Assembly: GCA_023473795.1 (NCBI GenBank)
Contig: JAMCYS010000132.1
Span: 1-41,182 of the forward strand
Source of the DNA: Chloroflexota bacterium
Lineage (GTDB): Bacteria; Chloroflexota; UBA6077; FW602-bin22; JAMCYS01
Direction: 5' to 3'
Length of the DNA: 41,182 nt
The position numbers and the translations under genes were made by a program. The notes beneath the pieces are model-generated. The model saw only the letters and a program-made list of their open reading frames with translations, made no database searches and had not been told where the DNA came from. Shown here in pieces: positions 7,053 to 9,330 of the stretch (position 1 is its first letter; the number at the start of each line of letters is the position of its first letter).

Positions 7053-9020
7053 TCACCGGTCCGCCTCCTTGGGCAATACCCCCGCGTCCTCCGAGTCTAA
7101 CCGGCGCGGGATCAGTGCCACCCGGGCGAACTGTCGCCGGCGCGAGCGAACCACCATCCCCGCCGCCACCGCGACACTGGCGCGGGGGTCGGCGATCTTC
7201 TCCTCCGCCACCTGGACGCTGCCCTGATCAACCAGCCGCTTAGCCTCGCCCTTGGAGGAGGCCAAGCCGAGGGCAAGGAGCAGGTCCACGACCGGCCAGT
7301 CACCGCCACGCGGCAGGACGACCTCCGGCACGTTCTCCGGCACTTCGCGCTGCTGGATCTCGCGGGCGAAGCGCGCCTCGGCCGCCAGGGCGTCGTCGGC
7401 GCTGTGGTAGAAGGTCACGATCTCCCTGGCCAGGCGTTTCTTGAGTTCCATCGGGTTGACGACGCCGTCGGCCAGCTGCAGCGCCATGTGGGCGATCTCT
7501 CCTTCCGCCACGTCCGTGCACAACTCGAAGTAGCGGACGATCAGTTCGTCCCTGAGCGACATCACCCGGCCGTACATCTCGTAGGGTGGGTCGCCGACGC
7601 CGATGACATTGCCATAGCTCTTGCTCATCTTGCGGCCGTCGGTGCCCTCCAGCAAAGGCACGGCGACGACGTACTTGTCGATATCCTTTAGCGCCTTCAG
7701 GAGAGTGCGCCCGGCCAGCATATTGAAGATCTGATCGGTACCGCCGATTTCGGCGTTGACCTCCATGGCCACGCTGTCGTAGCCCTGCAGCAAGGGATAG
7801 AGGAACTCGTGCAGGCCGATGGGCTTGTTCTCCTCCAGCCGCCGCTGGAACATGTCGCGCTGGATCATCTGTTGCACGGTGAAGTTGGCCGCCAGCTCGA
7901 TCATATCGCGGCTACTCAGGTTATCCCACCAGTCGCCGTTGTAGCGCACCTCGATGGGATTGCTGGGCGAGTTCATGTCCAGGATCTTGGCCGCCTGCTC
8001 GATGTAGCTGCGAGCGTTCTCCTGCACCTGCTCACGGGTCAGCTGCACACGCATCGCCGACTTGTCGGTGGGGTCGCCGATGCGTCCCGTGAAGTCGCCG
8101 ATGAGCAAGACCACCTGATGGCCGAGTCGCTGGAACTCGCGCAACTTGCGCAGGGCGACGGCGTGGCCGATGTGGATCACCGGGCTGGTGGGGTCGATGC
8201 CGATGTAGATGCGGATCTTGCCGCCCGCCCGCAGGTAGCCCTCCATCTCGTCGCGGGGGATGATTTCGGCGACGCCGCGACTGAGCAAGCGCTCTATGGC
8301 ATCCGGCTCGCGCTTCACGGGCGCGGGCAGATCGACCGCGCGCCGTTCCCTGCTGAGGAAGAACGTGGCGGCCAGGCCGCCTAGGCGCTCTTCGATCAGC
8401 GACGTCAGCGACGAGACAGCCGCACGCACCTCGGCCTCGTCCACGCCGACGAAGCCGTCGATGGGGAAGATCACGTTCTGGCTGGCAGGCGTAACCTTGG
8501 CTTTCTCCCCCAGCCGCCAGACCCAGCGGCGAGTGCGCACTTCGGCGTCGTCGGCGTAGACGATCTCGCCCGCCGGCACCGCCTCACCCTCGCTCTGGCC
8601 CATCGGAATAAACTGGTCGGCGGGGCGACTGAGCCGGACGGAGAAGTCGCCCCGCAGTCGATCCATATCGTGCGCGCCGACCGGCAAGCGGTAGCGCAAA
8701 CTGGCGGCGTTGCCCAGGTCGACGGCGGGGTTAATCGACGGTATCTGCTCGCCGGCGGCCACCCGACGCAGCAGCGCTTCGGCGGCGTTAGGGAAGCGTT
8801 CGGGGTCGATCCCCAGACGGCCGAAGGCCTGCCGCCAGACGGCGAAGGAGCTGTCCTGATCGAGGGGTCGAGCGGCGAGCCCTCCGCCTGCCTCGGCGGA
8901 CGCCTCTGCCACCAACTGCGCGCCGGCCTCGCCGTGATTGTTGATGCCCGTGGCCACGACCAGCCCGACGCAGAAGTCGGGGAAGAGATCGAAGATGACG
9001 TCGGCGATGCGAAACTGCAA
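7053..9020 (-). CDS. tyrS: Tyrosyl-tRNA synthetase with N-terminal B3/B4 editing-type domain
   Basis: Charges tRNA-Tyr with tyrosine. Residues 1-230 are a B3/B4 domain like that of PheRS beta (LPSINP-type segment IPSINPAVDLGN, PVGAHDMD, GEIVYADDAEVRTRR). Residues 240-560 are a class I TyrRS with HIGH (283-286) and KMSKS (464-468), the TyrZ-like form. Residues 590-640 are an S4 RNA-binding domain (ASSKGEAKRLVDQGSVQV). The start is TTG 9020, 7 nt after GGGAGG. The longer frame to GTG 9110 runs through the T-box antiterminator and terminator and cannot be the real start. Length is 655 residues, about 230 more than a plain TyrRS. The B3/B4 domain in PheRS hydrolyses Tyr-tRNA(Phe); its job here is unknown. 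Confidence 0.93.
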   Translation of the reverse strand: MQFRIADVIFDLFPDFCVGLVVATGINNHGEAGAQLVAEASAEAGGGLAARPLDQDSSFAVWRQAFGRLGIDPERFPNAAEALLRRVAAGEQIPSINPAVDLGNAASLRYRLPVGAHDMDRLRGDFSVRLSRPADQFIPMGQSEGEAVPAGEIVYADDAEVRTRRWVWRLGEKAKVTPASQNVIFPIDGFVGVDEAEVRAAVSSLTSLIEERLGGLAATFFLSRERRAVDLPAPVKREPDAIERLLSRGVAEIIPRDEMEGYLRAGGKIRIYIGIDPTSPVIHIGHAVALRKLREFQRLGHQVVLLIGDFTGRIGDPTDKSAMRVQLTREQVQENARSYIEQAAKILDMNSPSNPIEVRYNGDWWDNLSSRDMIELAANFTVQQMIQRDMFQRRLEENKPIGLHEFLYPLLQGYDSVAMEVNAEIGGTDQIFNMLAGRTLLKALKDIDKYVVAVPLLEGTDGRKMSKSYGNVIGVGDPPYEMYGRVMSLRDELIVRYFELCTDVAEGEIAHMALQLADGVVNPMELKKRLAREIVTFYHSADDALAAEARFAREIQQREVPENVPEVVLPRGGDWPVVDLLLALGLASSKGEAKRLVDQGSVQVAEEKIADPRASVAVAAGMVVRSRRRQFARVALIPRRLDSEDAGVLPKEADR

Positions 9021-9051
9021 CTGCACACCTCCCAGCGGCTGTCGAAGCCAT

Positions 9052-9330
9052 GAAGAAAGCCTCCCGTCCGTGAGGGCGAGAGGCCTGAACCTTCGCTGTA
9101 CCACCATCACTTCGCCACGCCGTCGCCGGCACGGCCTTGCCCGGTGCCGTTCATAAGAAAGGCACCACGCGCTGTAACGGGCGCCCCCGGCTCAACCTAC
9201 TCACGATCCACTTTCGGTCTGCGACTCCAGAGGGTAATTCGGGGCCACGGCATGGCAGGACTCACACCAACCGCCTGCTCTCTGAGCGCTGCTCCGCCGC
9301 CCCTACTGGTTCTCCTTCGACGTCTCTCGC
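9052..9330 (-). promoter_or_regulatory. Tyrosine T-box leader of tyrS
   Basis: The minus strand shows the T-box parts in order. The stem I distal elements are AGAGAG followed by GGTTGGTGTGAG (about 9284-9261). The specifier loop reads GAATTACC with TAC (9236-9234, tyrosine), then CTCTGGAGT. A GTAGG element follows (9200-9196), then the T-box proper, ATGGTGGTACAGCG (9107-9094), with the UGGU bulge that pairs with the uncharged tRNA CCA end. A terminator GCCTCTCG / CGGGAGGC (9084-9059) then TTTCTTC follows. By analogy with known T-boxes, uncharged tRNA-Tyr would stabilise the antiterminator and let tyrS be transcribed. Confidence 0.93.

Follow-up and report, generated by a model that had tools for sequence, protein, structure and literature searches.

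Why should a tyrosyl-tRNA synthetase (TyrRS) carry a domain of the kind that proofreads charged tRNA? The question is raised by a gene on the minus strand of a Chloroflexota contig (JAMCYS010000132.1, assembly GCA_023473795.1), whose 41,182 nucleotides we refer to as the window, in which a B3/4 editing-type domain is joined to a complete TyrRS. Synthetases with editing domains, deacylases of the B3/4 type and tyrosine T-boxes are all familiar already. To our knowledge, however, known TyrRS enzymes have no editing domain and have been treated as needing none, and a natural TyrRS with such a domain, gained at least twice, has not previously been described. A partial literature search returned no description of a natural TyrRS-B3/4 fusion, with the limit that B3/4 is unsearchable as a term and one may have been missed. 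We consider it likely that the protein is a natural post-transfer editing TyrRS, which would strip a tyrosine analogue from tRNA(Tyr) by deacylation and would spare Tyr-tRNA(Tyr). The gene and its parts are as follows.

7053 to 9020, minus strand: fused gene, B3/4 domain plus TyrRS, 655 codons, TTG start at 9020-9018 and stop at 7055-7053 (Pfam and NCBIfam)
8319 to 9020, minus strand: N-terminal B3/4 editing-type domain, residues 1-234 (Pfam B3_4 core 8388-8837; AlphaFold; Foldseek)
7182 to 8222, minus strand: TyrRS (tRNA-synt_1b 7368-8222; HIGH 8163-8174; KMSKS 7617-7631; S4 7182-7289)
9028 to 9033, minus strand: Shine-Dalgarno sequence GGGAGG, 7 nt before the TTG start

The fusion is real. 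An uninterrupted open frame runs from 9110 to 7053, and within it the B3_4 profile PF03483, whose use a preliminary description of this DNA had proposed, scores 90.1 bits (E 1.6e-25) against a cut-off of 29.3. The same protein matches tRNA-synt_1b at 229 bits, S4 at 24.5 bits and SYY_C-terminal at 27.9 bits, and reaches 348.6 bits against a cut-off of 113.8 for the NCBIfam equivalog TIGR00234 (tyrS); both the HIGH and KMSKS motifs are present, and the nearest solved structures to this part (6bqy and 1h3e) are both bacterial TyrRS. The description of a B3/B4-type N-terminus on a complete TyrRS with HIGH, KMSKS and S4 is therefore borne out, as is its choice of start codon. TTG 9020 is the better predicted start, since GGGAGG lies 7 nt upstream of it and the longer alternative preferred by the open reading frame caller, GTG 9110, falls inside the T-box antiterminator described below; moreover, the protein read from TTG begins MQFRIAD, and its relatives begin alike (MRFGIAP and similar). 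As the sole TyrRS found in this genome (4.4 Mb, 96% complete, searched with queries of both TyrRS types), the fused gene qualifies as the housekeeping enzyme. The same genome encodes a separate full-length beta chain of phenylalanyl-tRNA synthetase (PheRS), and contig 26 holds a further B3/4-like frame, of 230 aa, whose weak score of 28 bits is under the cut-off.

A survey of 60 relatives and 400 genomes of the phylum, followed by a scan of genome contigs, found the fusion in 11 Chloroflexota genomes including the source. The ten others carry it in frame at 44-64% identity (61-64% in G006, G010, G011 and G012; 52-53% in G002 and G008; 47% in G287, a 6.1-Mb genome of 5 contigs; 44-45% in G051), the contig scan having added record 54-19 (L062) and isolate 14 (L063). 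Because ten other genomes share it, an assembly chimera, a frame error or chance can be excluded. Unfused TyrRS enzymes form the majority among Chloroflexota, and the fused gene is the only TyrRS in the source and in eight other fused genomes. Unlike these, the genomes of L062 and L063 (G405 and G408) encode an unfused TyrRS besides the fused one, and additional B3/4 proteins.

Two further fusions lie outside the phylum, in a Tenericutes metagenome-assembled genome (L120) and an Erysipelotrichaceae one (L126), with open frames of 653 and 657 codons. A tree of 79 TyrRS sequences contains two deep TyrRS types, divided by fully supported branches; the Chloroflexota fusions belong to one and L120/L126 to the other. 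The nearest unfused TyrRS to the latter pair, L136/L137, come from genomes that carry separate standalone B3/4 genes. In a tree of 69 B3/4 sequences, L120/L126 nest with standalone proteins of Bacillota, apart from the Chloroflexota fusions. Both trees thus split the two groups, and at least two independent fusions are needed to explain these phylogenies. Within Chloroflexota, the fusions may go back to one event followed by loss in G076 (L039) or to more than one, support here being 92/79 and below. No further Bacilli fusion appeared among the matches listed in a search of 288 genomes from the order around G401, and no fused copy was found on the plasmids searched. Frames of 130-138 aa in G403 and G404 (L228 and L229) match only about half of the B3_4 profile and may represent half-size B3/4 proteins.

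A detailed comparison of the N-terminal domain with its characterised relatives shows where it belongs. The AlphaFold model of the isolated domain, built with 47 homologues, is confident (predicted local distance difference test score, pLDDT, 93.8); a model of the full fusion made without an alignment was useless (pLDDT 35) and was not used. Foldseek against the PDB ranks CtdA first (template modelling score, TM, 0.84-0.87; E 1.9e-19), with PheRS beta far behind (TM about 0.55), and sequence-level matches agree (E 9e-20 for CtdA, about 0.009 for PheRS). The "PheRS-like" label of the preliminary description consequently holds at the level of the B3/4 superfamily, while by sequence and fold the domain is CtdA-like, a standalone-type B3/4 fold of about 230 residues. 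The 47 fused and standalone members compared share R86, N97, V100, N104, G115, H117, F137, E152, T163, R164, W166, W168, R169 and D188 without exception, and at least 90% of them have D118.

The domain whose editing pocket the preliminary description wished to see modelled has a confidently predicted fold, but keeps only one of the four PheRS pocket residues mapped. When mapped by HHalign (probability 96) rather than by superposition, and in Thermus thermophilus numbering, Asn250 is kept as N104, and the other three mapped pocket residues are replaced, His261 by G115, Glu323 by K175 and Glu334 by P186. In PheRS, Glu334 and Gly315 hold the para-hydroxyl of tyrosine, and His261 and Glu323 coordinate water (PMC3275996). 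We therefore rejected a PheRS-type pocket on its residues, and the domain also lies outside any PheRS beta chain. The absence of His261 is compatible with activity, since archaeal and eukaryotic PheRS also have glycine there (PMC3275996). Nor does the domain belong with CtdA, as it carries GAHD where CtdA has GGEN, and its H-D clade is split from CtdA and from GGED-type Chloroflexota proteins at 100/100 in the B3/4 tree. By the residues compared, then, it is neither a CtdA nor a PheRS module; by family, it should act as an editing deacylase.

The upstream region ties the gene to tRNA(Tyr), through the following elements.

9069 to 9329, minus strand: T-box leader, matching RF00230 at 56.9 bits with E 1e-11 (gathering score 93, not reached), conserved in four relatives
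9234 to 9236, minus strand: T-box specifier codon UAC (tyrosine), the same codon in all fused-gene T-boxes found
9094 to 9105, minus strand: antiterminator T-box motif GGTGGTACAGCG, with UGGU for a tRNA ending ACCA
9052 to 9084, minus strand: intrinsic terminator hairpin GCCTCTCG...CGGGAGGC then TTTCTTC, read from the sequence; the hairpin is conserved

The leader falls short of the Rfam gathering score and is recognised instead by its specifier, AGTA and T-box motifs, terminator and conservation. Its elements (the UAC specifier, AGTA, CCGTTA, the GGTGGTAC antiterminator motif and the terminator) recur in L054-L057, with UAC invariant over the five aligned leaders and slight covariation (7/60 pairs). 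UAC T-boxes precede five fused Chloroflexi genes, all of one order, and both Bacilli fusions, where those of L120 and L126 score above threshold. A pattern search found no T-box motif before the fused genes of G002, G008, G051, G287, G405 and G408, nor before most standalone B3/4 genes. GC-rich Chloroflexota T-boxes score well below the Rfam cut-off, and default annotation would miss them.

The standalone relatives extend this link. L114 is a standalone B3/4 gene preceded by a UAC T-box of its own (103.6 bits), and its product shares 79% identity with the L126 domain; the next genes downstream lie on the opposite strand, and a second UAC T-box in the same genome precedes a separate TyrRS. The L114 leader may share ancestry with those of L120 and L126 and is hence not fully independent of them. 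L212 (G402:C14:65000-69200) contains a tandem pair of different TyrRS genes, of which the second follows a UAC T-box, and that genome's B3/4 gene also has its own UAC T-box. A MerR regulator stands 2-220 nt upstream of six other standalone genes, which come from Clostridium, Paenibacillus, Lachnospiraceae and Fretibacterium records.

L068, 5050 to 5904; L095, 5098 to 5916; L109, 4966 to 5781; also in L067, L070 and L103: MerR regulators directly upstream of standalone H-D B3/4 genes

All three MerR regulators scanned contain a GyrI-like small-molecule (ligand) domain. This placement suggests that a small molecule switches these genes on, an arrangement to be expected if they confer resistance to an external compound. 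Among the neighbours of 13 standalone relatives there was no link to a tyrosine pathway, only the MerR/GyrI-like association. Separately, an aldehyde:ferredoxin oxidoreductase gene precedes the standalone B3/4 genes at L058:4018-5865 (by Pfam) and at L064:62-1201 (similar by eye), and a homologue of LarA-type lactate racemase lies near the L058 gene.

We know of no substrate assigned to standalone B3/4 proteins other than CtdA. Records of Chloroflexota, Thermomicrobiota, Bacillota, Synergistota, Thermodesulfobacteriota, Spirochaetota and Actinomycetota contain members of the GxHD clade, and on balance we lean towards regarding this clade as a family devoted to the proofreading of tRNA(Tyr). 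Its members would act in trans as standalone proteins, at least two captures by TyrRS would have produced the first naturally editing TyrRS enzymes, and a toxic tyrosine analogue would induce expression through a tyrosine T-box or a MerR/GyrI-like regulator.

The likely reading combines these parts as follows. The TyrRS part would charge tRNA(Tyr), and the CtdA-type domain would take the 3' end of the charged tRNA and hydrolyse the bond if that tRNA carries a tyrosine analogue accepted by the synthetic site, leaving Tyr-tRNA(Tyr) intact. A T-box reading tRNA(Tyr) would raise expression as uncharged tRNA(Tyr) builds up; as editing itself would yield this uncharged tRNA, editing demand could feed back on the level of the enzyme. 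Because a second bacterial group acquired this combination on its own, the domain probably strips tyrosine look-alikes off tRNA(Tyr). The replacement of Glu334 by proline would fit a need to spare Tyr-tRNA(Tyr), because that residue binds the tyrosine hydroxyl in PheRS.

The preliminary description had offered the clearing of mischarged Phe-, DOPA- or meta-tyrosyl-tRNA(Tyr), and editing of tRNA(Tyr) remains the simplest reading of a B3/4 domain on a bona fide TyrRS, but not all of these substrates are equally credible. E. coli TyrRS gives no detectable reaction with phenylalanine, meta- and ortho-tyrosine enter only phenylalanine positions, and 3,4-dihydroxyphenylalanine (DOPA) enters tyrosine positions, PheRS proofreading likely barring it from phenylalanine positions (PMC9050441). 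Phenylalanine and meta-tyrosine are thus unlikely substrates, and DOPA leads as a tentative candidate, with other ring-modified tyrosines possible behind it.

Several points weigh against an editing TyrRS of this kind. E. coli TyrRS is selective and copes without editing, and no substrate-linked operon was found. Furthermore, with His261, Glu323 and Glu334 not conserved on the profile-based mapping and the E-N pair of CtdA replaced by H-D, neither known specificity carries over. The missing PheRS-type catalytic residues could also mean that the domain is a non-catalytic appendage that binds tRNA or stabilises the enzyme, as domains appended to aminoacyl-tRNA synthetases often bind tRNA. We regard this as unlikely: the invariant polar set (R86, N97, N104, H117, E152, R164, R169 and D188 in 47 proteins) resembles an active pocket, the MerR-controlled standalone relatives have no synthetase to stabilise, and the nearest characterised relative is an enzyme. 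That relative is also the closest solved structure, which would allow a canavanyl-tRNA(Arg) editor to have been joined to TyrRS by happenstance. Such an origin is very improbable given the 100/100 separation of the fused/H-D clade from CtdA, the exchanged E-N pair, the two fusions to TyrRS, the tyrosine T-box control and the lack of any arginine link seen.

Two other targets were considered. Bacterial TyrRS charges D-tyrosine, its best-known error, and a domain clearing D-Tyr-tRNA(Tyr) in cis would suit the fused genomes G008 and G051, which show no DTD. This explanation is improbable because DTD (PF02580) is present in the remaining fused genomes, including the source and both Bacilli genomes, which also led us to reject its absence as the driver of the fusion in most of them; in addition, L-amino acids are the targets of such B3/4 editing as has been characterised. 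Hydrolysis of Tyr-tRNA(Phe) in trans, on behalf of PheRS or in place of a lost PheRS editing site, is what B3/4 does within PheRS (PMC3275996), and action on tRNA(Phe) had also been raised in the preliminary description. We disfavour it, at a probability slightly lower still: H261, G315, E323, E334 and the T/S-x-A motif are all retained in those PheRS beta chains that were recovered from the fused Chloroflexota genomes. On the same residues, we reject the idea that the domain stands in for a defective PheRS site. Moreover, the tyrosine-hydroxyl contact Glu334 is a proline in the fusion domain, the T-box makes the gene responsive to tRNA(Tyr), and fusion to TyrRS would not bring the domain near tRNA(Phe). 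In the Bacilli genomes G402 and G401, PheRS beta (L218 and L219) retains His261 and Glu334 and has serine for Glu323; PheRS was not recovered for G400.

The preferred reading, an editing TyrRS, carries consequences beyond this locus. Two independent fusions to different TyrRS types, and a standalone copy with a tyrosine T-box of its own, link a large B3/4 family to tRNA(Tyr), so that its substrate can be tested directly.

Set beside known systems, the fusion combines familiar parts in an unfamiliar way. CtdA (PDB 9f7e, 9mkl) is a proven aminoacyl-tRNA deacylase for canavanyl-tRNA(Arg) (PMC10018355) and shares the B3/4 fold over its full length, with N104, G115, E152 and the RRW-W-R motif in common. 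It differs in standing alone, in having E-N rather than H-D at 117-118 and E rather than D at 188, in belonging to another clade and in acting on tRNA(Arg). Guanidine riboswitches control CtdA (PMC10018355), a regulatory logic that parallels the regulation of this B3/4 clade. The B3/B4 module of PheRS beta belongs to the same Pfam superfamily and has the equivalent of N104, but sits within PheRS beta, edits tyrosine and meta-tyrosine on tRNA(Phe) and lacks the G, K and P found in the fusion for His261, Glu323 and Glu334. From other bacterial TyrRS (TIGR00234; 6bqy, 1h3e), with which it shares a complete catalytic domain, HIGH/KMSKS, S4 and the position of sole TyrRS of its genome, the fusion is set apart by about 235 extra N-terminal residues. 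Its leader has the Stem I with UAC specifier, AGTA and T-box motifs, antiterminator and terminator of RF00230, but is GC-rich, under the gathering cut-off and in control of a fused synthetase (in L114, of a standalone B3/4 gene). The closest parallel was made in the laboratory: according to the account of Oki 2008 given in PMC3275996, an archaeal PheRS B3/B4 module grafted on an iodo-TyrRS edits Tyr-tRNA(Tyr) in cis. That chimera likewise joins a B3/B4 module to TyrRS for editing of tRNA(Tyr) in cis, but it is man-made, uses an archaeal PheRS module and, on the same account, was built to destroy the very Tyr-tRNA(Tyr) that the natural fusion must spare. The protein described here would be its natural counterpart, with a pocket that must discriminate against tyrosine and that would be useful for genetic-code engineering.
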